From NCBI RefSeq assembly GCF_002093665.1, contig NZ_MRWE01000007.1, positions 1 through 64,000 on the forward strand: 64,000 nt of DNA, read 5' to 3'. A program made the position numbers and the translations under genes. This stretch comes from Rouxiella badensis (GTDB taxonomy: Bacteria; Pseudomonadota; Gammaproteobacteria; Enterobacterales; Enterobacteriaceae). How positions within the stretch are numbered: position 1 is the stretch's first letter; each line of letters opens with the position of its first letter. The notes beneath the pieces were generated by a model, which was not told the origin of the DNA, ran no database searches, and worked only from the letters and a program-made list of their open reading frames with translations. This document shows, one piece after another, positions 46,898 through 60,776 of the stretch.

Positions 46898-47686
46898 TCA
46901 AGCCACCAGCACCTTTACGCCGACTGCCTCAAATGCAGCCTTGGATTCGGCGCTAATCCCGCTGTCGGTTATCAGATAATGAATCTTCGACCACTCGCAC
47001 GGCAGCGCAAACATCGACACTTTATCAATCTTGCTTGAATCAGCGACCACGTAAACCACGTTGGCCGACTGAATCATCGCGCTTTTTACTTTGATATCCG
47101 TCTCGCTAGGGAAGCTGAGGCCCGCGCGCGGTGAGATACAGGCCGTTGCCAGAAACAGCTTCTCGGCCAATACGTTCTCAAAAAAACTGGCCGCTTTTTC
47201 TCCCGAGGTCGAAAGAGTCGGAAACTTGAAAGTACCGCCGGTCAGCAAAATGTTAACGCCGGGCTCACCGCCGAGCTGTAGGGCGATATTCACCCCGGTA
47301 GTAATGACCGACAGACGTTTAATATGCCCAAGATGGTTGGCAATCGACGTGGTGGTGGTACCGGAATCGAGAATAATGGTGTCACCTGACTCGATAAAAC
47401 TGGCCGCCAGCTGTCCGATGGCGTCTTTTTCCCGCATCTGTGTCTGACGCTCGAGCAGCAGGGCGTGAGTATTTTGTTTGCCGTCCATTAGCGTCGCACC
47501 ACCGTGATAACGCTGAATAAATCCCTGTTTCTGCAGCACCCGCAGATCGGTTCGGATAGTCGCCTCGGTCAAGTTAAAGGCGTCAGTGAGCATTTTCACT
47601 GTGACGGTGCCATCTTCCCTGATCATTTCTAATATCTTGTCGCGACGATGCTGCATATCCGCCAATTGTTCGCTTTTGCTTTTCAA
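46898..47686 (-). CDS. DeoR-family repressor of the adjacent sugar operon
   Basis: 262 residues beginning at an unusual TTG: AAGGAG lies 8 bases upstream of it, while the first ATG (codon 11) has no such site. The N-terminal HTH runs RRDKILEMIREDGTVTVKML to TEATIRTDLRVLQKQGFIQRYHGGA (14-65). The C-terminal sugar-phosphate sensor domain has ILDSGTTTTSIANHL and LTGGTFKFPTLS. It is divergent from the transketolase-led operon with 410 bp between, and palindromes with TTTTCA/TGAAAA half-sites lie both in that space and across its own start. The inducer is expected to be a phosphorylated sugar of the pathway. Confidence 0.87.
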   Translation of the reverse strand: MKSKSEQLADMQHRRDKILEMIREDGTVTVKMLTDAFNLTEATIRTDLRVLQKQGFIQRYHGGATLMDGKQNTHALLLERQTQMREKDAIGQLAASFIESGDTIILDSGTTTTSIANHLGHIKRLSVITTGVNIALQLGGEPGVNILLTGGTFKFPTLSTSGEKAASFFENVLAEKLFLATACISPRAGLSFPSETDIKVKSAMIQSANVVYVVADSSKIDKVSMFALPCEWSKIHYLITDSGISAESKAAFEAVGVKVLVA

Positions 47687-47692
47687 TTGAAA
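47680..47692. promoter_or_regulatory. Second candidate DeoR-type operator, across the repressor start
   Basis: TTTTCAATTGAAA shares half-sites with the larger palindrome at 47826 and covers the TTG start codon. It would give direct autoregulation. Confidence 0.35.
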
Positions 47693-47825
47693 TACTCCTT
47701 ATCCGTTCACTGGCACCATTTTAGCGGCATAGGGCCGTTAAAACCTGCTTTAAAGCCAAATTATCGCGACATGATGAAAATAGTAACGTTGCAGCAGATC
47801 TAAAGCGAGGAGCAAAAAAACCTTT

Positions 47826-47849
47826 TTTGATTTTCATATGAAAATCAAA
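47826..47849. promoter_or_regulatory. 24-bp perfect palindrome, candidate DeoR operator
   Basis: TTTGATTTTCAT (47826-47837) followed directly by its exact complement. It is 140 bases upstream of the repressor start and 248 bases before the transketolase start. The rest of the 410-bp divergent region is AT-rich; TTGATC with TAAAAC (about 47970) is only a weak promoter candidate. Confidence 0.6.
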
Positions 47850-48096
47850 TCAGTGTTTTTGGTCATTATTCCTCGTATTACATAGTGTTATCATTTTTAA
47901 GAACAAGTCTTATTTATGTATATTTCTAATATTTAAGGATTTTAATAAAAAACCTGTTTTTGTATGAAACTTGATCAACCGCGCATTTTTCCCTAAAACG
48001 ATAATTTATAGTTTTATTCGAAAATGAGTTGCGCCGTTAGCGACACTGTTCATGGGGGCAGTAGAAAGTGAACGGCAAGGTCAAGACGAGGTAAAG

Positions 48097-48918
48097 ATGG
48101 ACGCTCAGGAAATGAAAACGTTTCAGGAAATAAAAACTGTCGCCCGGCAGGCACGCCGTTACGTTTTGCAAATGAATCACCACGCAGGCAAAGGCCACAC
48201 CGGGGCCGATCTTTCTGAAATCGATATCATCTGCACCCTCTACATGGCAGTGATGGACCGCGCACAGGCGAGTCCCGACAGGGATCGCTTCATTCTTTCC
48301 AAAGGTCACGGCGCAGGCGGCCTGTATTGCAGTGCGGCGGCGATGGGACTGTTAGACCCGAACGTGCTCGACCAGTTTATGGGGGACGATACGCTGCTGG
48401 CGGGTCATCCGGTGCACCAAAAGCTTCCGGACCTGGTCGAGATTAATTCTGGCGGTCTTGGCCATGGCCTGCCGATTGCCGTTGGGCTGGCGCTCGGCAA
48501 TAAAATCAGCGGTCGCGCATATCGCCGTGCGTACGTGTTGCTAGGCGACGGTGAACTCGCCGAAGGCTCCAACTGGGAGGCCGCGATGTCTGCCAGCAAG
48601 TTTAAGCTCGACAATCTTATTGCCATTGTCGACCGCAATCGCCTGCAGCTCGCGGGCAAAACCGAGGACATCATGCCACTGGAGCCGCTGGCCGATAAGT
48701 GGCGCGCCTTCGGTTTTGAGGTGCTCGAGTGTGACGGGCATGACCCGGCGTCTATTCATGCCGCCGTCACCCAGCCGATGCAGGGCAAACCCCGCGTCAT
48801 TTTGGCCAATACCGAGAAAGGCCACGGCATTTCGTTTATGGCCAACGTACCCGCCTGGCACCACGCCGTGCCTAACGATCAACAGCTGGCCGAAGGGTTG
48901 GCAGAGCTGGAGGAGTGA
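48097..48918 (+). CDS. Transketolase, N-terminal (ThDP pyrophosphate) subunit
   Basis: 273 residues from ATG 48097, with ACGAGG 6 bases upstream; an ATG 45 bases earlier is in frame but lacks a site. ThDP features: HHAGKGHTGADLSEIDI (28-44), the GDG motif at 150-152 with N181 in IVDRNRLQ, and the SKGHGAGGLYCSAA block (68-81). It is half of a transketolase; the other half follows directly. Together they would transfer a C2 unit from a ketose phosphate. Split transketolases are typical of specialised routes such as apulose-4-phosphate cleavage (AptA/AptB) rather than the housekeeping pentose phosphate pathway. Confidence 0.9.
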   Translation: MDAQEMKTFQEIKTVARQARRYVLQMNHHAGKGHTGADLSEIDIICTLYMAVMDRAQASPDRDRFILSKGHGAGGLYCSAAAMGLLDPNVLDQFMGDDTLLAGHPVHQKLPDLVEINSGGLGHGLPIAVGLALGNKISGRAYRRAYVLLGDGELAEGSNWEAAMSASKFKLDNLIAIVDRNRLQLAGKTEDIMPLEPLADKWRAFGFEVLECDGHDPASIHAAVTQPMQGKPRVILANTEKGHGISFMANVPAWHHAVPNDQQLAEGLAELEE

Positions 48919-48920
48919 TC

Positions 48921-49868
48921 ATGCAAGACTTGCGCGACGCCGTCGTTTCGACGCTGATAGAACAACAGGAGCAGGGCGCCAACCTTAGCGTGATGGTGGC
49001 CGACTCGACCTCAACTTCAAAAATTTCGCCGTTCGAAAAGGCTTATCCGGACCGGGTGATAAACGTCGGCATAGCCGAGCAGAACATGGTCGGCATGGCC
49101 GCGGGTGTCGCACTGAGCGGCCACGTGGTGTTTACCGCTAACGCCGCACCTTTCCTGTTTGCCCGTTCGAATGAGCAAATGAAAAACGACGTCTGTTATT
49201 CAGAAACCAACGTGAAAATGCTTGGCCTCAATGCCGGGTTTGCCTATGGCCCACTGGGTGCAACGCACCACTGTACCAACGATATCGCCATCGCCCGTAC
49301 CTTGGGCAATCTGCAGGTCTTCGCCCCCGCGGACGCCAGTCAGGCGCAGGCCATTGTTCGCCATGCCATCAAACATAAAGGCCCGGTCTACATTCGCATG
49401 GACAGCGACAAGCTTCCGGTGTTGCACGACGAGGATTATCGCTTTATTCCGGGTCAGCCGGACGTACTCGCCGAGGGCGACGACGTGGTGGTGTTCACGC
49501 TTGGCACGCTGGCGCATGAGGCACTTGCCGCACGCGAACAGGGCTGCAATCCGACGGTGGTGTCGCTGCCGTCGCTGTGGCCGCTCGACGAGCTGGCGGT
49601 GGTCGAGCTGATTAAATCGCATAAAAAGGTGATCACCATGGAAGAACACGCATTGAGCGGTGGTCTGGGCACCATCATCGGTGAGTTAATCCTTAAATAC
49701 CGTTTGAGTCAGCCGCTGCAAGCGTTCGGCATTCCGGCCTACGAGTTCACCCACAGCAGCAGTCGTACCGCACTGCGCCGTCAATTTTCTATCGATACAT
49801 CCGGTCTGGTTGCCGCACTGAAGGGGCCAGCGATTGCCGCTGCACGGGAGGCTGCGAATGAGCACTAA
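48921..49868 (+). CDS. Transketolase, C-terminal (pyrimidine-binding) subunit
   Basis: 315 residues from ATG 48921, with GGAGGAG 6 bases upstream; a GTG at 48915 overlapping the previous stop is the alternative. The catalytic glutamate is E53 in RVINVGIAEQNMVGMAAGVA, and ANAAPFLFARSNEQMKNDV follows. The C-terminal domain has VTMEEHALSGGLGTIIGE-type sequence (ITMEEHALSGGLGTIIGE). It pairs with the N-terminal subunit encoded just upstream. Its last 11 bases overlap the start of the SDR gene, so the three are translationally linked. Confidence 0.9.
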   Translation: MQDLRDAVVSTLIEQQEQGANLSVMVADSTSTSKISPFEKAYPDRVINVGIAEQNMVGMAAGVALSGHVVFTANAAPFLFARSNEQMKNDVCYSETNVKMLGLNAGFAYGPLGATHHCTNDIAIARTLGNLQVFAPADASQAQAIVRHAIKHKGPVYIRMDSDKLPVLHDEDYRFIPGQPDVLAEGDDVVVFTLGTLAHEALAAREQGCNPTVVSLPSLWPLDELAVVELIKSHKKVITMEEHALSGGLGTIIGELILKYRLSQPLQAFGIPAYEFTHSSSRTALRRQFSIDTSGLVAALKGPAIAAAREAANEH

Positions 49869-50658
49869 TCAATACGACGTCAACCTGCGCTACGGCGTGG
49901 ACACCCACCTGTCGCTAGAGGGAAAAGTCGTGGTGGTCACGGGGGGATTCGGCGGTATCGCGATGGCAAGCAACCGTATGATGCTGGAGAAGGGCGCGCA
50001 TCTGGCGCTGCTCTATCCACAATTCGAAAGCGCTCTGAAACAGCAGATAGTGGATGAGCTGGGAGAACGTCAGGTTAGCTATTTCGAGTGTGACGTCACT
50101 TGTCCCTCTCAGGTCGTCGACGTGTTTCGCCAGGTCGAACAGCAGTGTGGGCAGATTGATATTTTGGTCAACTGCGCAGGCTACGTACATCTCGAACCGG
50201 CGGTAGAAACCTCCTTTGAACAGTGGCAGAAAAATCTGGCCGTTAACCTGACCGGACCGTTCCTCTGCTCACAGGCGGCGGCGCGCAGCATGATAGCACG
50301 CGGTAGAGGTGGGAAAATCATTAACATTGCCTCGCAGGCGGCCTCGATTGCTATCGATAACCACTGCGCCTACACCTCTGCCAAGGCCGGGTTACTCGGT
50401 ATGACCAAGGTCATGGCCAAAGAGTGGGCACCGCACCGTATTAATGTGAATACGCTCTCCCCAACCGTGGTGCTGACGCCGATGGGCGAGAAGGCCTGGC
50501 GCGGCGAAAAAGGCGAAGAGATGAAAAAACTCATCCCCCTTGGACGCTTCGCTTATACCGACGAAATCGCCGCCGCTATTCTGTTTTTCTCGAGCAACGG
50601 CAGCGACATGATTACCGGCGCGGACCTGATGATCGACGGTGGTTTCACCATCTGGTAA
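49858..50658 (+). CDS. SDR-family dehydrogenase (first of two in the operon)
   Basis: 266 residues from ATG 49858 with GGGAGG upstream. The nucleotide motif is VTGGFGGIAMASNRMML (28-44), slightly unusual because the last Gly of TGxxxGIG is Ala. NCAGYVHLEP, IINIASQAASIAIDNHCAYTSAKAGLLG with the intact Y-x-x-x-K, and the C-terminal GADLMIDGGFTIW are present. It probably oxidises a polyol or reduces a keto-sugar with NAD(P). The 17-residue N-terminal extension before the Rossmann start is seen in gluconate 5-dehydrogenase-like SDRs. Confidence 0.85.
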   Translation: MSTNQYDVNLRYGVDTHLSLEGKVVVVTGGFGGIAMASNRMMLEKGAHLALLYPQFESALKQQIVDELGERQVSYFECDVTCPSQVVDVFRQVEQQCGQIDILVNCAGYVHLEPAVETSFEQWQKNLAVNLTGPFLCSQAAARSMIARGRGGKIINIASQAASIAIDNHCAYTSAKAGLLGMTKVMAKEWAPHRINVNTLSPTVVLTPMGEKAWRGEKGEEMKKLIPLGRFAYTDEIAAAILFFSSNGSDMITGADLMIDGGFTIW

Positions 50659-50755
50659 GCCCGGCTTGCAGTAAGACTCTAAAAAACGGCGTTAACCCTA
50701 CAAAATAAACGCCCAAAAGCTCTATAAAAAACAATAACATTGAGAGAACTTCACC

Positions 50756-51688
50756 ATGAAAAAACACCTTGCCCTGTTAACCGTTCTTGCCAGTCTCGTC
50801 GTTCCTCCCGCCTTCGCCGTAGAAAAAGGCACCCTCGCTATCCTGGTTAACTCTCTGGATAACCCGTATTACTCCGCCGAGGCGAAAGGCGCCGAAGCCA
50901 AGGCCGAATCGTTGGGATACAAAACGCTGGTGCTTTCGCACGGCGAGGACGTTAAACGGCAGGGTGAGCTGATAAGCCTGGTTATTGGTCGCAAGGTTCA
51001 GGGCATTATTCTGGACAACGCCGACTCTCAGGCAAGCGTTGCCGCCGTGAAGCAGGCCAGAGATGCCGGTGTGCCGGTGGTGCTTATCAACCGTGAGATC
51101 CCGGTCGACGGCGTGGCGTTGGCGCAAATTTCCCACAACAACTTCCAGGCTGGCTCTGACGTCGCCAATGAATTTGTTGAAAAAATGGGTGAGAAAGGCA
51201 CCTATGCCGAACTGACCTGTAATCTTGCGGACAACAACTGCGTGACCCGTTCCAAGTCGTTCCACAACGTTATCGATCAATACCCTGATATGAAAATGAT
51301 CGCCCGTCAGGACGCCAAAGGCACGCTGATTGACGGTAAGCGCATTATGGACAGCATCCTGCAGGCGCATCCAGACATCAAAGGCGTGATAACCGGCAAC
51401 GGTCCGGTAGCGCTGGGTGTTATTGCGGCCCTCAAGGCGGCGAACCGTAGCGATGTTACCGTCGTCGGCATTGACGGCAGCAACGACGAGCGCGACGCGG
51501 TGAAATCGGGTGCACTGTACGCCACCGTGATGCTTCAGGCGCAGGCGATTGCCTCTCAGGGCGTGGAAATTCTTGACCAATATATCCAGAAAGGCAGCTA
51601 CAGCGGTAAAGAACGTATTCTGTTCCGCGGCATTCTCATCAAGAAAGACAACGCCGACAAGGTCAACAACTTCAATTATCAGAAGTAA
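50756..51688 (+). CDS. Periplasmic sugar-binding protein of a ribose-type ABC transporter
   Basis: 310 residues. A Sec signal with cleavage after AFA (21). The mature start GTLAILVNSLDNPYYSAEAKGAEAKA is the RbsB pattern, and IDGSNDERDAVKSGAL near 240-255 is the hinge region. It delivers a small sugar or polyol to the transporter encoded downstream. Ligand residues cannot be assigned by eye; CNLADNNC near 158-165 is unlike RbsB. A GC-rich hairpin follows, which commonly raises the level of binding protein over membrane components. Confidence 0.88.
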   Translation: MKKHLALLTVLASLVVPPAFAVEKGTLAILVNSLDNPYYSAEAKGAEAKAESLGYKTLVLSHGEDVKRQGELISLVIGRKVQGIILDNADSQASVAAVKQARDAGVPVVLINREIPVDGVALAQISHNNFQAGSDVANEFVEKMGEKGTYAELTCNLADNNCVTRSKSFHNVIDQYPDMKMIARQDAKGTLIDGKRIMDSILQAHPDIKGVITGNGPVALGVIAALKAANRSDVTVVGIDGSNDERDAVKSGALYATVMLQAQAIASQGVEILDQYIQKGSYSGKERILFRGILIKKDNADKVNNFNYQK

Positions 51689-51715
51689 AGATTGGCGCGC
51701 ATAGAGCAGATACAG

Positions 51716-51733
51716 GCCCCGCCTGGGCGGGGC
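51716..51733 (+). other. Intercistronic hairpin after the binding-protein gene
   Basis: GCCCCGC and GCGGGGC pair around CTGG. It is a strong stem without a T-run, in the 61-bp gap before the lipoprotein gene. It probably protects the upstream mRNA or attenuates partly. Confidence 0.5.
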
Positions 51734-51749
51734 TTAAAGGAGAAGCGTA

Positions 51750-52382
51750 ATGTCTAGTCGCTTGATGTGGATACTCATGGCAACGCTGCTGCTTTGCAGT
51801 TGCCGAATAGTTTCCGAAAAAAAGCTGGCGGAACTGAAGAATCCCCCGAACCCTCACCTGGCACAGGCGGCGATGCTGTTTGACCAACAAATTGCCCCGC
51901 AGATAGTCAGCTCTGCCAAGCCGCTTGCTACTTTACTCGGCCAGATAGAGGGGGCGAAAGACTTTGATACCGCTTGCCAGCAGCTTGGTTATCGCAGTCA
52001 GGACGAGAATCCCTGCGTATTCAACACCACCGTGAGTGGCACCGTCAGTGAGGTCAATACTGAATCACGCAACGGCCAGATTGTGCTGAAGAGCGATGAC
52101 CCGAAAGTAGGGGAAGTGAAAGTGCAGATTGGCCCAACGTTTCGCGGTACCGAGCTGCGCGACAGTTATCGTGGCCTGAGCTACAGCGACTTCAACGATC
52201 AGAATATGTTCGGTGATTTCGGTAAAGCCATCAATCAGCGGGCCATTGCCTCGCTCGGCAAACCGTCGTTTAAGGTCGGCGATAAACTGACGATATATGG
52301 CGTATTTAGCGCCTTTGATACCCCGCAGCCACCCATTCTGCTGACACCTGCGAAAATCACGGCTGACAAGGCCACGCAGTAA
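51750..52382 (+). CDS. DUF2291 lipoprotein partner of the ABC transporter
   Basis: 210 residues. A lipobox ending LCSC, with Cys18 as the lipidated residue. It matches DUF2291, found almost only beside ribose-type ABC transporters for polyols and pentoses in proteobacteria, where it lies between the binding protein and the ATPase as here. The C-terminal domain VGDKLTIYGVFSAFD is beta-rich. Its role is not established; it could help deliver substrate or stabilise the transporter. AAAGGAGAAG precedes the start. ABC ATPase follows after 9 bases. Confidence 0.75.
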   Translation: MSSRLMWILMATLLLCSCRIVSEKKLAELKNPPNPHLAQAAMLFDQQIAPQIVSSAKPLATLLGQIEGAKDFDTACQQLGYRSQDENPCVFNTTVSGTVSEVNTESRNGQIVLKSDDPKVGEVKVQIGPTFRGTELRDSYRGLSYSDFNDQNMFGDFGKAINQRAIASLGKPSFKVGDKLTIYGVFSAFDTPQPPILLTPAKITADKATQ

Positions 52383-52391
52383 GGAGTCGCG

Positions 52392-53960
52392 ATGTTTGAA
52401 CAACGCAGTAGCAGCGCACAGCCGGAGCCTTTCGCCAACCCTCTGCTTCAGGGGGGACCGGTGATTATCGAAACCCAGGGCGTTTCGCGCGTCTATCCCG
52501 GCGTAACGGCGCTCGATAACGTCAATTACCGCGTCTATCGCAACAAGGTCAACGTGCTTATCGGGGAAAACGGTGCCGGTAAATCGACGATGATGAAGAT
52601 GCTGGCCGGCGTTGAAGTACCGTCCAGCGGCGAAATCCTGCTCGACGGTGAACCGGTGTCGCTCAGCTCGACCCATCAGGCGGAAAAGCACGGGATCAGC
52701 ATCATTTTTCAGGAACTGAATCTGTTTCCGAATATGACGGTGATGGACAACATTTTTATCGGTAACGAATTTTTCCAGCGCGGCAGAATCAACGTCGATT
52801 ATCAGTACCAGCTGGCGAAGTCCTTGCTGGAGCGCCTGGAGCTGGACGTTGATCCGCTGACGCCGCTGGAAGAGCTGGCAATCGGCCATCAGCAGCTGGT
52901 GGAGATAGCCCGCGCGCTGTCGAAGGATACGCGGGTGTTGATCATGGACGAACCCACTTCGGCGCTGAGTCAGTCCGAGGTCAAGGTTCTATTCAACGTT
53001 ATTGAGCAGCTCAAGCGACGCGGTGTCACCATCATCTATATCTCGCACCGGCTGGAAGAGCTGATGGAAATTGGTGACCACATTACCGTCTTCCGCGACG
53101 GCAAGTTTGTCGCCGAGCAGGAGGTCAGTCAGGTCAGTATTCCCTGGATAATTTCCAGCATGGTCGGTGAAAAAGAAAAGCAGTTTGACTATCGCTGCGC
53201 CGAAAAAGGTAGCGCGGTGTTGCAGGCCAACGGTCTGACGCTGCTGCATCAAAACGGCGGTTATTCACTCAATGACGTTAGCCTGACGCTACATCAGGGC
53301 GAGGTGGTGGGTGTTTACGGACTTTTAGGGGCCGGGCGGACCGAGCTGTTCAAGACCCTGATTGGCCTGCTGAAACAGGACGCGGGCGAGATCTGGCTGA
53401 AGGGGAAACGCATGGAGCACAGCCCGTTTGCCTATCGGCTCAAGCACGGCATGGCGCTGGTACCCGAAGACCGTCAGGCGGAAGGGCTTATTCAGCTGCT
53501 GTCGATAAAAATCAACATGACGCTTTCCAGCCTGTGCAGCAAAAGTTTCCTAAAAATGCTGTTACCGATCCGCGATGTGCCCGAAGACGCGGCGGTAAAA
53601 GAGATGATTGCCAAGCTGTCCATCAAGGTGAGTGACGCCTGTCTGCCGGTTACCTCGATGAGCGGCGGTAACCAGCAAAAGGTGGTGATCGCCAAGGCAC
53701 TCATGACCCATCCGCAGGTGGTGTTTCTCGACGAGCCAACGCGCGGCATCGACGTCGGCGCGAAAACCGACGTTTATCATCTGATTGGCGCGATGGCGCA
53801 GCAGGGACTGGCGGTGATGTTCTCGTCATCAGAACTGGATGAAGTGATGCAGTTGGCGGACCGGGTAATTGTCATGGCGGACGGCAAAATTACTGCCGAC
53901 CTGCGGCGTGCCGACGTGGACAGAGAAAAGCTGATCCGCGCGTCGACACCACACGATTAA
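52392..53960 (+). CDS. Sugar ABC transporter ATPase (RbsA-type, two ATPase domains)
   Basis: 522 residues. Domain 1 Walker A GENGAGKST (58-66), with VLIMDEPTSALSQ as its Walker B. Domain 2 has a degenerate P-loop GLLGAGRTELF, but a full SGGNQQKV signature and VFLDEPTRGIDVG. This asymmetry is usual for RbsA/XylG/AraG. It powers import with the permease directly downstream. The N-terminal 25 residues before VIIETQGVSRVYPGV are an extension with no motif. AAGGAG precedes the start. Confidence 0.93.
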   Translation: MFEQRSSSAQPEPFANPLLQGGPVIIETQGVSRVYPGVTALDNVNYRVYRNKVNVLIGENGAGKSTMMKMLAGVEVPSSGEILLDGEPVSLSSTHQAEKHGISIIFQELNLFPNMTVMDNIFIGNEFFQRGRINVDYQYQLAKSLLERLELDVDPLTPLEELAIGHQQLVEIARALSKDTRVLIMDEPTSALSQSEVKVLFNVIEQLKRRGVTIIYISHRLEELMEIGDHITVFRDGKFVAEQEVSQVSIPWIISSMVGEKEKQFDYRCAEKGSAVLQANGLTLLHQNGGYSLNDVSLTLHQGEVVGVYGLLGAGRTELFKTLIGLLKQDAGEIWLKGKRMEHSPFAYRLKHGMALVPEDRQAEGLIQLLSIKINMTLSSLCSKSFLKMLLPIRDVPEDAAVKEMIAKLSIKVSDACLPVTSMSGGNQQKVVIAKALMTHPQVVFLDEPTRGIDVGAKTDVYHLIGAMAQQGLAVMFSSSELDEVMQLADRVIVMADGKITADLRRADVDREKLIRASTPHD

Positions 53961-53975
53961 GATTAAGGAACGGCT

Positions 53976-55049
53976 ATGCAAAGTCAAAAGTATCTCATTT
54001 ACATGTACTTACTCAAGGCGCGCACCTTTATCGCGTTATTGATTGTGGTCGCTTTCTTTAGCGCGATGGTGCCCAACTTTATTACGCCGTCCAACCTGCT
54101 GATCATGACCCAGCACGTCGCTATCACCGGCCTGCTGGCGGTCGGTATGACGCTGGTCATCTTAACCGGAGGGATCGACCTCTCGGTGGGGGCCGTGGCG
54201 GGTATTTGCGGCATGATTGGCGGAGCGTTGCTGTCGTTTGGCATCCCGCTTTGGGGCGACAACCTGCTGTTTCTTAACGTGATTGAGGTCAGTGTCGTGG
54301 TCGCTGTCGCCGGAGTAGTGATAGGAACGCTTAACGGGCTGGTGATCACCAAACTTGGCGTCGCGCCCTTCATCTGCACCCTGGGGATGATGTACGTGGC
54401 GCGCGGTGCGGCACTGCTGACTACCGACGGCAAAACCTTTCCCAATCTGAACGGGGTCGAAGCTTTGGGTAACACCGGTTTTGCGACGCTCGGTTCAGGC
54501 ACCTTTCTCGGTATCTATAATCCTATCTGGCTGATGGTCGCTGTGGTACTGCTCGGTATTTATATCACCAAGAAGACGCCGCTCGGTCGTTATATCTATG
54601 CCATCGGCGGCAACGAATCGGCTGCCAGGCTGGCGGGCGTGCCGATAGCCAAGGTCAAAATCTTTGTCTATGCCTTTTCCGGGTTCTGTGCGGCGCTGGT
54701 CGGGCTGGTGGTGGCGTCGCAGCTGCAAACCGCGCACCCGATGACCGGCAATATGTTCGAGATGGACGCCATCGGGGCCACGGTACTCGGCGGAACCGCG
54801 CTGGCCGGTGGCCGTGGCCGAGTGTTTGGTTCAATTATCGGTGCCTTTGTTATCGTGTTCCTGGCCGATGGGTTGGTGATGCTTGGCGTCAGCGAGTTCT
54901 GGCAGATGGTGATTAAAGGTCTGGTTATCGTGACCGCTGTGGTTATCGACCAGTTCCAGCAGCGTCTGCAAAGTAAGGTCACGCTGATGCGCCGTCACGA
55001 AAAAAAGCAGCAGGCAACGTCTCCGCTGTCTGAGGTGAGCCATGGTTGA
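53976..55049 (+). CDS. Sugar ABC transporter permease (RbsC-type)
   Basis: 357 residues, about 8-10 hydrophobic segments. The RbsC signature TGLLAVGMTLVILTGGIDLSVGAVAG is near residues 48-73, and TVLGGTALAGGRGRVFGSIIGA near 268-290. It pairs with the ATPase 15 bases upstream. The C-terminal tail (RRHEKKQQATSPLSEVSHG) is charged and extends past the family norm. Its stop overlaps the start of the kinase gene by 8 bases. Confidence 0.92.
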   Translation: MQSQKYLIYMYLLKARTFIALLIVVAFFSAMVPNFITPSNLLIMTQHVAITGLLAVGMTLVILTGGIDLSVGAVAGICGMIGGALLSFGIPLWGDNLLFLNVIEVSVVVAVAGVVIGTLNGLVITKLGVAPFICTLGMMYVARGAALLTTDGKTFPNLNGVEALGNTGFATLGSGTFLGIYNPIWLMVAVVLLGIYITKKTPLGRYIYAIGGNESAARLAGVPIAKVKIFVYAFSGFCAALVGLVVASQLQTAHPMTGNMFEMDAIGATVLGGTALAGGRGRVFGSIIGAFVIVFLADGLVMLGVSEFWQMVIKGLVIVTAVVIDQFQQRLQSKVTLMRRHEKKQQATSPLSEVSHG

Positions 55050-56574
55050 GGTAAAGACCCGACACAGGGACGTCATTGTGGCGATCGATGAAGGCACAAG
55101 CAATGCCAAGGCGGTCGCTATCGACGGCGGAGGGCGAGTGGTCGCCCAGTCTTCGCGGCCCTTGCAGGTACAAACGCCGCAGGCGGGATGGGTCGAACAA
55201 GATGGCGAGGTATTGGTCGAAGCTTCACTCACCGTGCTGCGCGAAGTCATCGACAGCGTGGGCATGCAGCGTATTGCGGCACTGGCGATAAGCAATCAGC
55301 GCGAGACGGCCATCGGCTGGTATCGCGCCAGCGGCAAACCGGTCGCGCCGGCACTGACCTGGCAATGTTCGCGCAGCGCGGCGTTTTGCGAGCAACTGCG
55401 CCGTGACCATCAGGAACCGGTCATTCGTGATATTACCGGCCTGCCGGTTGCCCCCCTGTTTTCCGCCTCCAAGATGCGATGGCTGCTCGACAGCCTGCCG
55501 GACGGCGCAGCGCGCGCGGCCTCCGGCGAGATTTGCCTCGGTACGATAGATGCCTGGCTGCTGTGGAATCTGACCGGCGGCGAGGCGTTTCGCTGCGATA
55601 CCTCAAATGCCGCCCGCACCCAGCTGTTAAATCTCCAGCACGGTGACTGGGATCCGCAGATGCTGAAGCTGTTTGGTGTTCCGCGCGAGGCGTTGCCGCA
55701 GATTTGTCCCTCCAGCGGTTTCTTCGGCGAGACGCGCGGTCTAGACGGGATCCCCGACGGACTGCCGATTCTTGCGATGGTCGGCGACTCTCACGCTGCA
55801 CTCTATGGCCACGGGCTCGGCGAGTTCGGCGGCGTGAAGGCCACCTACGGTACGGGATCTTCGGTCATGGCGCCTATTCCTCAGCCGCAGAGCAGCATCA
55901 CGCAGCTCGCGACCACCGTGGCCTGGCACGATGGCCAAAGAGCCGTTTATGGGCTGGAGGGCAATATCCCGCACACCGGTGATGCGGTGGCGTGGATGGC
56001 GCAAATCACCGGCCTGACCGACGGTAAGGGCGAAACCCTGAGCCGGGCGTTGACCGAGCTACCGGCCAGCGTCGAATCCACACTGGGCGTCTATTTTGTT
56101 CCTGCACTGACCGGCGCGGGGGCTCCCTGGTGGGACGGACAGGCGCGGGGCGTGATAAGCGGGCTGAGCCGAGGCGTGGGGCGTTCGCATCTTATCCGTG
56201 CTTCACTCGAGGCCATCGCCTATCAAATCGCCGACGTCATCGACGCCATGCGCCAGCATCCCGACTTCCACCTTAGTTCTCTGCGGGTGGACGGGGGGCC
56301 GACGCGTAATCCCTGGCTGATGCAGTTTCAGGCTGACCTTTTGGGCTGTGAGGTGTTGCGCAGCAATACGCCGGAACTCTCTGCGCTCGGCGCGGGTCTT
56401 CTTTCCCGCAGGGCGCTTGAGGGGCTGGACGACGTCAGGCTAAGGGCACTGCTGCCACAGCATGACGTCTTTAAGCCCAACGCTGAACGGCATCACATTT
56501 TGCAGCAGCACTGGCAGGGCTGGAAAGCCGCAGTGGCCAGCATGCTGGAGCAGTCCGCTAAGCATTCACAATAA
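55042..56574 (+). CDS. FGGY-family carbohydrate kinase
   Basis: 510 residues. The phosphate motif is VAIDEGTSNAKAVAID (13-28), followed by SNQRETAIGW near 87-96 and the ATP-domain motifs YGTGSSVMA and VDGGPTRNPWLMQFQADLLG (about 413-432). It belongs to the glycerol kinase-like branch rather than the xylulokinase or ribulokinase branch by its NQRETAIGW and GGPTRN pattern, but substrate is unknown. In this operon it should phosphorylate the ketose made by an SDR for the transketolase to cleave. Overlap with the permease gene implies coupling. Confidence 0.9.
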   Translation: MVEVKTRHRDVIVAIDEGTSNAKAVAIDGGGRVVAQSSRPLQVQTPQAGWVEQDGEVLVEASLTVLREVIDSVGMQRIAALAISNQRETAIGWYRASGKPVAPALTWQCSRSAAFCEQLRRDHQEPVIRDITGLPVAPLFSASKMRWLLDSLPDGAARAASGEICLGTIDAWLLWNLTGGEAFRCDTSNAARTQLLNLQHGDWDPQMLKLFGVPREALPQICPSSGFFGETRGLDGIPDGLPILAMVGDSHAALYGHGLGEFGGVKATYGTGSSVMAPIPQPQSSITQLATTVAWHDGQRAVYGLEGNIPHTGDAVAWMAQITGLTDGKGETLSRALTELPASVESTLGVYFVPALTGAGAPWWDGQARGVISGLSRGVGRSHLIRASLEAIAYQIADVIDAMRQHPDFHLSSLRVDGGPTRNPWLMQFQADLLGCEVLRSNTPELSALGAGLLSRRALEGLDDVRLRALLPQHDVFKPNAERHHILQQHWQGWKAAVASMLEQSAKHSQ

Positions 56575-56586
56575 GGAAACGCGAAG

Positions 56587-57384
56587 ATGAACAGAGACTT
56601 TAGTGGCAAGACGGTGGTGATAACCGGCGCATGCCGCGGCATTGGGGCCGGAATTGCCGAACGCTTTGCCCGTGATGGAGCCAATCTGGTGATGGTGTCG
56701 AACGCGGAACGGGTGTTTGAAACCGCCGAGACGCTGCGTCAGCAGTATGGCGTCGATATTCTTCCCTTACAGATTGACGTCACCAACGAACAGCAGGTGC
56801 AACAGCTCTATCAGCAGGCGCTGGAAAAATTTGGCACCGTCGATGTGTCTATCCAGAATGCCGGGGTGATCACTATCGATCGTTTCGACCGCATGCCAAA
56901 ACAGGACTTCGAGCGGGTGCTGGCCGTCAACACCACTGGCGTCTGGCTGTGCTGCCGCGAGGCCGCGAAAATCATGGTCAAACAGCGTGCGGGGAGTCTG
57001 ATCAACACCTCGTCGGGCCAGGGGCGTCAGGGCTTTATTTATACGCCACACTATGCGGCCAGCAAGATGGGCGTCATCGGCATTACCCAGAGTCTGGCGC
57101 TTGAACTCGCTCCTTATAACATCACCGTCAATGCATTTTGTCCCGGCATTATCGAAAGCGAGATGTGGGATTACAACGACCGCGTGTGGGGCGAAATCCT
57201 CAGTAGCGACGAGAAGCGTTACGCCAAGGGGGAATTAATGGCCGAGTGGGTGCAAGGTATTCCGCTAAAACGCGCCGGCCAGCCGCAGGACGTCGCCGGG
57301 CTGGTGGCGTTTTTGGCCTCTGACGACGCCCGCTATCTGACCGGACAGACTATCAACATCGACGGCGGGCTGATTATGTCGTGA
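56587..57384 (+). CDS. SDR-family dehydrogenase (second of two in the operon)
   Basis: 265 residues, classical SDR. TGACRGIGAGIAERFARDG (11-29), IQNAGVITIDRF, LINTSSGQGRQGFIYTPHYAASKMG with intact Ser and Y-x-x-x-K, and ARYLTGQTINIDGGLIMS at the end. It resembles sorbitol/galactitol or meso-butanediol-type dehydrogenases, consistent with oxidation of a polyol to a ketose. It is the last gene of the operon, 12 bases after the kinase, and ends 6 bases before a convergent PLP enzyme. No terminator is visible in that gap. Confidence 0.87.
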   Translation: MNRDFSGKTVVITGACRGIGAGIAERFARDGANLVMVSNAERVFETAETLRQQYGVDILPLQIDVTNEQQVQQLYQQALEKFGTVDVSIQNAGVITIDRFDRMPKQDFERVLAVNTTGVWLCCREAAKIMVKQRAGSLINTSSGQGRQGFIYTPHYAASKMGVIGITQSLALELAPYNITVNAFCPGIIESEMWDYNDRVWGEILSSDEKRYAKGELMAEWVQGIPLKRAGQPQDVAGLVAFLASDDARYLTGQTINIDGGLIMS

Positions 57385-57390
57385 GGCAGC

Positions 57391-58629
57391 TCAGAAGAAG
57401 GTGCTGATATCGCCGACGCAGCGATATTCATCGTCGATAAGCGGCAGATAGCGCCACTTGTCGAAGGCGGTGCAGGGGTGAGAAATACCGCATCCTACCC
57501 AGTCACCGACCGCCAACAGCAGATCGGCGGGCAGGCTAAGATAGGCGTGCTGATCGTTGACGGCGGTTATGGTGCTCTGCGCCGCCGTGCGAGGATGCGA
57601 ACCGTCACGGTCGCGGAAAAAGTGCGGCACTGGCAGGTCCTGATCGAAAGGCACGTCGCGGCGGCCAAAATCGAGAATAGCCAGACCCGGCTCCGGGCGC
57701 GACAGTACGCGGCCCCAGATTTCCAACGTCGCTTGAAAGGTGAATTCAGCGTTTGGTTGGGCAAAAGGGGCAAGGCGCGAATAAAGCCCGTCGTCGTGTG
57801 CCATGTAGGCACCTGAGCGGATGAGCGTCACGGTCGGGCGGCTAAGTTTTACCGCTGCAAACATTTCGACCACGATATCAAAGAAGGTGCCACCTCCGGC
57901 GCTTAACAACACTTCTCCCGGCGCAAAAAGCGCTTCGGCATCGATAGCGCGGGCGGCGCTGACCATGGTTTGGCAATAGTCTCTCACTGCGGCTAGCGAT
58001 TCCTCGCTGCGATCGCCGGCAATCGCGCCCTCATAGCCGGCGACACCGGCAAGCTCAAGATAGGGGCTTTGCTTAACGGCGTGGGCAATCGCTACCGCCT
58101 CGACCATGCTGCGACAGCCAGTGCGGCCGCCCGGCACCGAGACCTCCACCAATACCGACAGGCAGGTGCCCACCTCGCTCAACGCCGCATCAAGCAACGC
58201 GACGCCCGCTAAAGAGTCGACATAGCAGAGAAACTCGGTGGCGGGATTTTCGCGTTGGTACTCGGCTATCCAGCGAATACCGGCAGGGTCGACCAGCTCG
58301 TTGGCTAAAAACACGTTTTTAATGCCAAAGGTGCGAAGGGCGCGGACCTGTGCGGGGGTCGCTGCGCAAATCCCCCAGGCTCCGGCGTCCACGGCGGACT
58401 GTAGAATCAGCGGAGACATCGAGGTTTTACCGTGTGCGGCATGACGGACGCCGTGCAGACGGCAGTATTGCGCCATGCTGGCCAGATTATGCTGCATCGC
58501 GCTTTGCTTCATGACCATCAGCGGTGAAAACACCTGCGAGGAGGAGAGCACGTCGGTACCGAGTGGCAGGGGAGTGGTTCCCTGACCCGCCACCGATTTG
58601 TACAACGGCGGCAATGAAAGCTGGTTCAT
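57391..58629 (-). CDS. DSD1-type PLP/zinc D-amino acid lyase
   Basis: 412 residues from ATG 58629, immediately after the ATPase stop. Fold-type III (alanine racemase-like) N-domain: RHAAHGKTSMSPLI with PLP lysine K68, then VLVEVSVPGGRTGC, and a C-terminal beta domain with GISHPCTAFDKWR. The metal pair is H384 and C386. Eukaryotic D-serine dehydratase has His and Cys there, while D-threonine aldolase has His and Asp, so the lyase type is D-serine dehydratase-like. Such an enzyme makes 2-aminoacrylate, which RidA (encoded upstream) deaminates. Substrate D-serine or a related hydroxy D-amino acid is inferred. Confidence 0.78.
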   Translation of the reverse strand: MNQLSLPPLYKSVAGQGTTPLPLGTDVLSSSQVFSPLMVMKQSAMQHNLASMAQYCRLHGVRHAAHGKTSMSPLILQSAVDAGAWGICAATPAQVRALRTFGIKNVFLANELVDPAGIRWIAEYQRENPATEFLCYVDSLAGVALLDAALSEVGTCLSVLVEVSVPGGRTGCRSMVEAVAIAHAVKQSPYLELAGVAGYEGAIAGDRSEESLAAVRDYCQTMVSAARAIDAEALFAPGEVLLSAGGGTFFDIVVEMFAAVKLSRPTVTLIRSGAYMAHDDGLYSRLAPFAQPNAEFTFQATLEIWGRVLSRPEPGLAILDFGRRDVPFDQDLPVPHFFRDRDGSHPRTAAQSTITAVNDQHAYLSLPADLLLAVGDWVGCGISHPCTAFDKWRYLPLIDDEYRCVGDISTFF

Positions 58630-58630
58630 A

Positions 58631-59371
58631 TTAATGTTCCAACACGCGCGACAGGAACTGCTGGGTGCGCGGATTCTGTGGGTTAACGAAAATTTGCTCC
58701 GGTGAGCCCTGTTCGGCAATCACCCCCTTGTCCATAAACACCACGCGGTCAGCGGTTTTACGCGCGAATCCCATCTCGTGCGTGACCACGACCATGGTCA
58801 TGCCTTCGCGGGCGAGGCCGCGCATCACTTCGGTCACCTCACCGACCAGTTCCGGGTCGAGGGCCGACGTCGCCTCATCGAAGAACATAATTTTCGGTTC
58901 GACCGCCAGCGCACGTGCAATCGCCACGCGCTGCTGCTGGCCGCCGGAAAGCTGTGAGGGATAATGCCCGGCGCGGTCTGCGAGCCCTACGCGTTCCAGC
59001 GCCTCCATGCCACGCCTGTTGGCTTCGGAAACCGACATTTTTCTTGCCTTGATAAGCGCCAGGGTGACGTTACCGAGCGCGGTTTTATGCGGAAACAGGT
59101 TGAACTGTTGAAACACCATGCCGACGTGGCCGCGTATCTCTTTGGCGCGCTTTGCATCGTGCAGCGGGACTTCATTAACCCACACCTCGCCACCGTCGGC
59201 GATTTCTAGCCCGCTCATGATGCGTAGCACGGTACTTTTTCCTGAACCCGAGGCCCCAATCAGCACCAGAACTTCACCCGGTTTAACGTCGAGGCTGATC
59301 GCTTTCAAAACCTGCGTACTGCCGAAGGATTTGGTGATGCCATTGAGGGTTATGACAGCGTTATTGGTCAT
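58631..59371 (-). CDS. Polar amino acid ABC transporter ATPase
   Basis: 246 residues, GlnQ/HisP family. Walker [10 protein letters not shown] near 39-47, Q-loop [15 protein letters not shown], signature [16 protein letters not shown] and Walker [20 protein letters not shown], all intact. It energises uptake with two permease genes upstream. The start overlaps the permease stop by four bases, and the stop is one base from the DSD1-type gene start, so all are coupled. Confidence 0.94.
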
Positions 59372-60015
59372 GACAGCTGACTCCTGGTGTGATTATGGTG
59401 TTGAACCCAGCGTGAAAGCGGGTAGCAAATAGCGAAATAAAGGGCGGCCACCAGACAGTAAATCACCACCGGCTGACCGATACGGTCGACGATCGCCTGA
59501 CCTTGATGCATCAGTTCTGACATGCCAATCATGCTGACTATCGAGGTGTCTTTGATTAATGACAGATATTGTCCGACCAGCGGCGGCAGCACTATCCTGC
59601 GCGTCTGCGGCAAAATGACAGAGAAAAATGCCTGCCGTTTGTCCAGCCCGAGGATCTGCGAGACTTCCCACTGACCTTGAGGGACGGCTTCGATACCGGC
59701 GCGAAATACTTCGGAAATGTATGCGCCCTGATAAATGCTCAGTCCGAGGATCCCGGCGGCAAACAAATTGATTTCATAGCCGAAATAGGCCACGCCAAAA
59801 TAGATAAACATTAAGGTAATCAGCACTGGCGTGCCGCGAAACAGCTCGGTATAGACTCGGGCAATCTGTGCGCCCACAGGAATATTGCTGGTGCGTAATA
59901 CCGCTGCAAGCAGGCCGAGCAGCGTACTGCCGGCTATCGAGGCAATCGACAGTAGCAGGGTGACGACCAGCCCTTTTAACAACAGCGGCAGGCTGGAAAG
60001 AATTAAATCGCTCAT
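59368..60015 (-). CDS. Polar amino acid ABC transporter permease
   Basis: 215 residues, HisMQ-type, 4-5 helices. The [19 protein letters not shown] region and the EAA loop ([23 protein letters not shown], about 96-118) are clear. It forms a heterodimer with the permease at 60012-60776. Overlap of four bases on both sides marks a tightly coupled operon. Confidence 0.92.
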
Positions 60016-60776
60016 AGCAGACCTCCGCGTTGCAGATTATTTGCGGGTAAAGACTTTCCACGTATTACGTTCAGACGCCGCTTTACTCGGGACCCAACGG
60101 GCTTTTTTACCGAGCTCACCAGCGGTGGATTAAACATCCGACGTCCCAATAGGTTGCCTATCCAGGAAAAGACGTTACTGAACAGCAGATAAATGACCAA
60201 CGTGATGCTGAAGGTTTGGATATAAAGCAGAGTACGAGAGTTAATCACTGTCGCTACCCCGGTTAACTCCGGCAGGGCAATGGCCGAGAGCAGTGAGGTG
60301 CCGAGTAAAAGCTGAATAAGATTATTAATAATCGCCGGGTAGACCGCGCGAGCGGCCTGCGGCATGACGATATTGATAAATACCTGTAGACGGCTGATAC
60401 CCAAGATTGACGCAGCCTCCAGTTGTCCCTTAGGAATGGACTGCATCCCGGCGCGAAAGACTTCGGCCAGATAGGCACCGACGTTAATGCCGAGCGCAAT
60501 CACCCCTGCCGTGTAGGCATTAAGCACGATACCCAGCGACGGCAGGCCAAAAAACACGATAAAGATTTGCAGCAGAACCGGCGTATTTCTGATGACTTCG
60601 ATATAGCAGCCGCTAATAAGACGAAGCACAGACCAGCGTGACTCTTTCGCCAACGCCGCCAGCAGGCCCAATGCCATCGCCAACGCAAAGGCCAGCAGGG
60701 TAACTTGCAGTGTGACCCAGGCCGCCTCGACGAAGGTGCCGAAATAGCGGGAGAGGGTTATCCATGGGTAGCTCAT
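60012..60776 (-). CDS. Polar amino acid ABC transporter permease
   Basis: 254 residues, HisMQ-type. Three early helices (TLLAFALAMALGLLAAL, VIRNTPVLLQIFIVFFGLPS) and the EAA loop LAEVFRAGMQSIPKGQLEAASILGI (about 104-128). The C-terminal 45 residues (RRMFNPPLVSSVKKPVGSRV and onward) are basic and longer than usual. It partners the 215-residue permease downstream. It starts 23 bases after the binding-protein stop. Confidence 0.92.
   Translation of the reverse strand: MSYPWITLSRYFGTFVEAAWVTLQVTLLAFALAMALGLLAALAKESRWSVLRLISGCYIEVIRNTPVLLQIFIVFFGLPSLGIVLNAYTAGVIALGINVGAYLAEVFRAGMQSIPKGQLEAASILGISRLQVFINIVMPQAARAVYPAIINNLIQLLLGTSLLSAIALPELTGVATVINSRTLLYIQTFSITLVIYLLFSNVFSWIGNLLGRRMFNPPLVSSVKKPVGSRVKRRLNVIRGKSLPANNLQRGGLL

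Follow-up and report, generated by a model that had tools for sequence, protein, structure and literature searches.

The isomerase-type gene cluster for D-apiose catabolism, reportedly described by Carter et al. in 2018, comprises apsI, aplK, aptA and aptB. A related cluster is found in Escherichia coli ST131/ST14 and E. fergusonii, and the passages of Royer et al. (2026, PMC13001218) on which we draw state that D-apiose supports growth of its carriers but not of K-12, that apsI is missing, and that two oxidoreductases are proposed to replace the isomerase ApsI. The word apiitol is absent from the text of that source, and the same passages do not mention DeoR, Erwinia, Serratia or Pantoea. Here we describe an operon of Rouxiella badensis within a 64,000-nucleotide stretch (the window; assembly GCF_002093665.1, contig NZ_MRWE01000007.1, positions 1-64,000, forward strand). 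It encodes a split transketolase (halves TKa and TKb), an FGGY kinase, an ABC transporter with a sugar-binding protein (SBP) and a DUF2291 lipoprotein, two short-chain dehydrogenases/reductases (SDR1 and SDR2) and a divergent DeoR-family regulator. We consider it very probable that the operon, under DeoR control, encodes the apulose route of D-apiose catabolism in a form that needs no isomerase. As far as sequences can tell, this reading is carried by gene content, the clades of the kinase and transketolase, the occurrence of either an isomerase or an SDR pair, and cofactor signatures; the substrates, and the order in which the two SDRs act, we infer.

Scanning genome contigs with the kinase confirmed 210 relatives, from which 80 loci were obtained; 4 annotated loci brought the total to 84 (L and G numbers denote the loci and genomes compared, G000 being the whole genome of the window). 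Frames of these loci were matched against the window proteins, and three layouts were assigned from the matches. Layout I (n = 15) has the order of the window: DeoR, then TKa, TKb, SDR1, SBP, DUF2291, ATPase, permease, kinase and SDR2. Layout II (n = 24) has a SorC regulator with the kinase, transporter, SDR2, another partner dehydrogenase (SDR1') and a divergent transketolase; E. coli SE15 ECSF_RS02670-02715 corresponds to it gene by gene and is a SorC-type sister of the window operon. Layout III (n = 24) consists of the transporter, SorC, TKa, TKb, a PF02952 isomerase that we infer to be ApsI, and the kinase. The remainder were 6 distant isomerase loci, 14 others and 1 without a kinase. The 15 layout-I loci belong to Erwinia, Pantoea, Serratia and one unclassified enterobacterium, with two (L014 and L015) from one genome, and the layout is also present in G004 and G005 of the window's own genus (G005 is apparently the same strain as L018). 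Such recurrence implies that the gene order is more than chance. Rouxiella aceris SAP-1 (L059), whose transketolase halves are identical to those of G001 of the window's genus, has layout III, so the isomerase and SDR versions of the pathway both exist within one genus.

Isomerase and SDR pair did not occur together at any locus with a closely related kinase. Of the 66 loci whose kinase was more than 60% identical, the SDR pair was present in 39 and the isomerase in 24; 3 loci had neither, one of them truncated by a contig end, and none had both. When only the 55 loci flanked by 6 kb or more on each side were counted, these numbers were 35, 18, 2 and 0. Layout II is a mosaic. By median identity it resembles layout III in TKa (80%), TKb (76%), kinase (74%) and SorC (73%), and layout I in SBP (86%), ATPase (80%), permease (84%) and SDR2 (84%), while the transketolase halves of layouts I and II share 48 and 45%. 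In the window, neither an isomerase nor an aldolase is among the operon genes (46898-57384), and no relative of the layout-III isomerase, the 'fucose isomerase' of sister clusters, was found in G000 at E <= 1e-30. An earlier note on this DNA had remarked that dehydrogenases stand where the isomerase should be, and this holds.

TKa and TKb are separate frames in 15/15 layout-I loci, which indicates that the transketolase is naturally split and not broken. In a tree of the concatenated halves (43 rows), a 29-row clade (SH-aLRT, the Shimodaira-Hasegawa-like likelihood ratio test, 100) united layouts I, II and III and some gammaproteobacterial rows. It excluded the rows of rhizobia, of L119 and of the distant isomerase loci, as well as five other split transketolases. 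The kinase is glycerol-kinase-like yet falls under both GlpK cut-offs (468 bits vs 590 and 452 vs 498), and its tree separated 28 transketolase-linked kinases from 4 GlpK rows (SH-aLRT 100), with the window kinase outside GlpK. Both trees are quick searches with long-branch warnings, and monophyly of the layout-I kinases received no support (SH-aLRT 37). Two features of the isomerase-type route recur in the window: a split apulose-4-phosphate transketolase, by its two frames and its clade, and a putative FGGY apulose kinase, by clade membership.

These groupings favor D-apiose as the substrate, because the kinase and transketolase share clades with isomerase clusters of which 4/24 are apiosidase-linked, and because carriers of the E. 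coli sister cluster are described as growing on D-apiose in the parts of PMC13001218 consulted. The earlier note had tied the operon to D-apiose catabolism through AptA/AptB, and this tie is borne out. It had also called the pathway unassigned and named grouping of the kinase and transketolase with a known pathway as one result that would count against this; the grouping with D-apiose clusters, and the link of the related E. coli cluster to D-apiose growth, mean that the label no longer applies. It is very unlikely that the operon instead acts on a tetritol such as threitol or on a linear pentitol such as arabitol or xylitol. SDR1 does exceed the cut-off of the GolD/DthD polyol dehydrogenase model NF005309 (307 bits vs 286), which might hint at this alternative, but the kinase lies far under the xylulokinase cut-off (193 bits vs 380) and groups with kinases of apiosidase-linked clusters.

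The PF13204 apiosidase stood beside the isomerase in L131 (E 2.7e-92) and beside 4/24 layout-III loci; none was found in the window, and it accompanied 0/15 layout-I and 0/24 layout-II loci, which extend only ~10 kb to each side. At L131:9341-15007 and L038:1524-5310, the apiosidase accompanies an MFS_2 transporter and a ROK-type regulator beside the isomerase or layout-III cluster, a set that we propose to be a second apiose entry, via apiosides.

The distribution of SDR2 was surveyed with a threshold of E <= 1e-75, which detected relatives in 9/394 genomes of the order and 18/398 of the phylum, 22 different genomes of Pseudomonadota in all. Every one of the 22 places was examined: SDR2 adjoins the kinase and split transketolase in 19/22, and a second SDR lies beside it in 21/22, the exception (L118) stopping at a contig end. 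The three without adjacent kinase and transketolase belong to one genus, g29, which encodes both elsewhere and has a DeoR-SDR1-transporter-SDR2 module lacking them (L121, L123, L124). Rhizobial plasmids bear the same gene set, several with tpiA; in the SDR-pair clusters L104, L105 and L106, tpiA is accompanied by an adjacent ribB (3,4-dihydroxy-2-butanone-4-phosphate synthase). It is conceivable, although improbable, that a single SDR with bound nicotinamide isomerizes apiose to apulose on its own and the other acts on a side substrate. SDR2 is nearly constant between layouts I and II (median 84%) and its partner has been swapped (median 33%), which speaks for this reading, but the partner slot is occupied in 21/22 genomes and the two SDRs of Klebsiella-type pairs have different cofactor signatures.

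Two expectations were abandoned. Strict exclusion of isomerase and SDR pair at the level of genomes was dropped, as the isomerase is present in 2/22 SDR2 genomes (G113 and G282, 76 and 84% identical; G174 and G405 gave merely 28-29% matches). The prediction that L054 and L055, which have kinase and transketolase without an adjacent isomerase, hold SDR2 elsewhere failed in 2/2 cases. Conversely, an SDR2 interrupted by a stop was found in the genome of L040, 1 of the 23 isomerase genomes searched; plasmid record L093, the 24th, was not among them. This SDR2 relative (L133) is 72% identical and lies in a genome where the isomerase cluster is present; it is perhaps a decayed SDR version.

We next consider cofactors. 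Every row of SDR1 and SDR2 retains the catalytic Ser, Tyr and Lys, and 16/16 rows of SDR1 have the N-S-Y-K set. In SDR2, the residue preceding the second Gly of the Gly motif is Arg or Lys in 61/61 rows, and position 38 is Asp in 2/61; SDR1', the E. coli/Klebsiella-type partner, has Asp at the end of beta-2 in 39/39 rows (one a duplicate). In classical SDRs, a basic residue of the SDR2 kind usually denotes NADP(H) and an Asp ending beta-2 NAD(H). By this usual rule, SDR2 would be of the NADP(H) type and SDR1' of the NAD(H) type.

In the route that we propose, the ABC transporter would import D-apiose (possibly D-apiitol). One SDR, at best guess SDR2 with NADPH, would reduce D-apiose to D-apiitol, and the other, at best guess SDR1 with NAD+, would oxidize apiitol at its secondary alcohol, forming apulose. 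Apulose would then be phosphorylated to apulose 4-phosphate by the FGGY kinase, and the AptA/AptB-type transketolase would transfer the C1-C2 unit of this product to glyceraldehyde 3-phosphate, yielding xylulose 5-phosphate together with dihydroxyacetone phosphate (DHAP). The remainder should be DHAP because C3 is a tertiary carbon, and the triosephosphate isomerase gene of some rhizobial clusters fits its formation. A reductase and dehydrogenase pair in place of an isomerase is a solution known from fungal xylose use.

Several observations weigh against the proposed route. The roles given to SDR1 and SDR2 are proposals. SDR1 of the window has neither an NAD nor an NADP signature, its Gly motif ending GIA and its beta-2 Tyr-Pro in 16/16 rows, and it is non-orthologous to SDR1' (32-33% identical, different NCBIfam models). 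Isomerase and SDR pair occur together in 2/3 g29 genomes, where the pair has no kinase or transketolase alongside, and the genomes of L054 and L055 have kinase and transketolase, with neither isomerase nor SDR2 found genome-wide. KEGG lists a reduction of D-apiose to D-apiitol (R03577), which uses NADH according to the part of PMC1686944 consulted, and SDR2 looks NADP(H)-type. No gene is named for this reaction in the literature searched. We take it to be EC 1.1.1.114, with Aerobacter as the source. Finally, the binding pocket of the window differs from those of isomerase-type and Rhizobium etli proteins at about ten positions, as set out below. Our broader claim is more tentative, and we would put it slightly short of an even chance: SDR2 as NADPH-dependent D-apiose reductase and SDR1 as NAD+-dependent apiitol dehydrogenase may form an isomerase bypass used across Pseudomonadota, in which transporters, regulators and second SDRs are interchangeable and the layout-I and layout-II transporter may import apiitol.

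The AlphaFold model of the binding protein (predicted local distance difference test, 89.7) best matched 4ry0 (Foldseek E 1e-38, 51% identity), which is R. etli RHE_PF00037 and is titled a ribose transporter protein in the Foldseek listing, with no ligand named. Another structure of RHE_PF00037, 5ibq, presumably holds apiose; it does not appear by title in that listing. All RbsABC cut-offs were missed by the window transporter (RbsB 143 bits vs 337, RbsA 491 vs 745, RbsC 281 vs 398). We compared the pocket positions that we take to contact the ring sugar in ribose-binding proteins. Common to layouts I and II are N32 L34 Y38 Y39 N112 K188 G189 G216 I239 L260. Layout III and R. etli have P32 H34 F38 F39 D112 N188 W189 D216 F239 Q260 in common, and positions 34 and 239 are variable in the distant isomerase loci. 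With about ten differences, uptake may therefore differ in form or compound, and the transporter may import apiitol or another form instead of the aldose.

Might D-apiitol, then, be the true substrate? One SDR would suffice and the second would serve apiose from other routes; L-apiitol would also be possible, because apulose is achiral. Layouts I and II have other residues at the aromatic and polar positions presumed to hold the ring (Y for F38/F39, G for W189, I for F239, N for D112, L for Q260), and in g29 the SDR-pair transporter stands apart from the isomerase route of the same genome, both as expected under this alternative. However, the two SDRs are kept together in 21/22 genomes, and E. 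coli, whose binding protein is of the same pocket class, can use D-apiose for growth according to the passages of PMC13001218, which concern growth and not the entry route. We regard apiitol as a rather unlikely substrate and continue to favor D-apiose.

The DeoR-family protein best matched the NCBIfam model AgaR (199 bits, under the cut-off of 260) and is 80-92% identical across the 15 layout-I loci. Between deoR and TKa, the motif TTTTNNNYGAAA had 19 matches in the 15 layout-I stretches, with at least one in 14/15, compared with 21 in the remaining 309,947 bases of these loci (0.068 per kb), an enrichment inflated by AT-rich intergenic DNA. In the window alone the signal is weak (5 matches vs 2.06 expected). 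Candidate operators are given in Table 1, and we presume that the DeoR protein represses the operon.

Table 1. Operon genes and candidate operators, in window positions
Feature	Coordinates	Strand	Basis
DeoR-family repressor	46898..47686	-	open frame, TTG start, divergent from operon
Perfect palindrome TTTTCATATGAAAA, candidate operator	47831..47844		aligned in several layout-I intergenic regions
Operator-like TTTTGTATGAAA	47958..47969	+	motif TTTTNNNYGAAA
Operator-like TTTTATTCGAAAAT	48012..48025	+	motif enrichment
TKa, transketolase N-terminal half (AptA-like)	48097..48918	+	PF00456; start by conservation; tree
TKb, transketolase C-terminal half (AptB-like)	48921..49868	+	PF02779 and PF02780; tree
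SDR1, GolD/DthD-family polyol dehydrogenase; proposed apiitol dehydrogenase	49858..50658	+	NF005309
Periplasmic sugar-binding protein (CUT2)	50756..51688	+	51% to 4ry0; Foldseek; pocket comparison
DUF2291 lipoprotein	51750..52382	+	PF10054, E 4.4e-39
Sugar ABC ATPase, two ATP-binding domains	52392..53960	+	family search
ABC permease	53976..55049	+	family search
FGGY kinase, proposed apulose kinase	55042..56574	+	below glycerol kinase cut-offs; clusters with transketolase-linked kinases, apart from GlpK
SDR2, marker of two-dehydrogenase version; proposed NADPH-dependent apiose reductase	56587..57384	+	genome survey; cofactor signature

Family searches agreed with the gene names of the earlier note, and every gene it listed is an open frame in the order, on the strand and at the coordinates given; its DeoR operon, split transketolase, DUF2291 ABC transporter and FGGY kinase were all upheld. 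Conservation and ribosome-binding sites led us to revise three starts (TKa 48097, TKb ATG 48921, SDR1 ATG 49858). The overlaps it had reported at several joints consequently persist for TKb/SDR1 (49858-49868) and permease/kinase (55042-55049), and that of TKa/TKb becomes a 2-base gap. Tetritols and linear pentitols, which it had also entertained, are unlikely substrates, and its interpretation as a whole is partly supported.

Some neighboring and side observations deserve mention. Beside the operon and not part of it, 57391-60776 (-) encodes an amino-acid-type ABC transporter and another frame, presumably of the alanine-racemase/D-threonine-aldolase type. A Klebsiella pneumoniae record labelled plasmid (L090) has the usual fepA-entD region with an apiose-type cluster. 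We also considered loss of the housekeeping transketolase, since G000 has no intact tkt, but dropped the idea. In G005 and G008, fragments of tkt lie at contig ends, and G001, G002 and G004, of the same genus, each carry two tktA/tktB copies with the same bit score, which suggests that near-identical repeats were probably collapsed in G000.

Replacement of ApsI by two oxidoreductases in E. coli had already been proposed, as the cited passages of PMC13001218 record. New here are a further version under DeoR control, whose SDR1 is non-orthologous and whose transketolase has diverged, the SDR cofactor signatures, the linkage of SDR2 to kinase and transketolase in 19/22 genomes, and a distinct binding pocket. 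If the proposed route is true, it explains use of D-apiose, a plant cell-wall sugar, without an isomerase in many enterobacteria and rhizobia. SDR2 would then be a marker gene for finding such clusters, apiitol would be a predicted free intermediate, and sequences would be assigned to the apiose reduction KEGG R03577, giving it a direct test.

Among the nearest known systems is the two-oxidoreductase cluster of E. coli (L091), with which the operon shares an SDR2 ortholog alongside kinase, split transketolase and DUF2291 ABC transporter, the lack of an isomerase, and the same set of functions (SBP 75, ATPase 74, permease 80, kinase 66 and SDR2 85% identical). The operon differs in having a DeoR instead of a SorC regulator, in gene order, and in its transketolase halves (~46-47%) and second SDR (~33%). 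The isomerase-type D-apiose cluster of layout III likewise has a split transketolase and an FGGY kinase, both of the same clades, and a DUF2291-type CUT2 transporter, but it has an isomerase, no SDR pair and the other pocket class. The R. etli RHE_PF00037 transporter (4ry0, 5ibq) includes the nearest solved binding protein, but it adjoins a RuBisCO-like route (L092) and belongs to the other pocket class. Lastly, SDR1 resembles the GolD/DthD polyol dehydrogenases in exceeding the NF005309 cut-off and departs from them in the GIA and YP endings of its Gly motif and beta-2.

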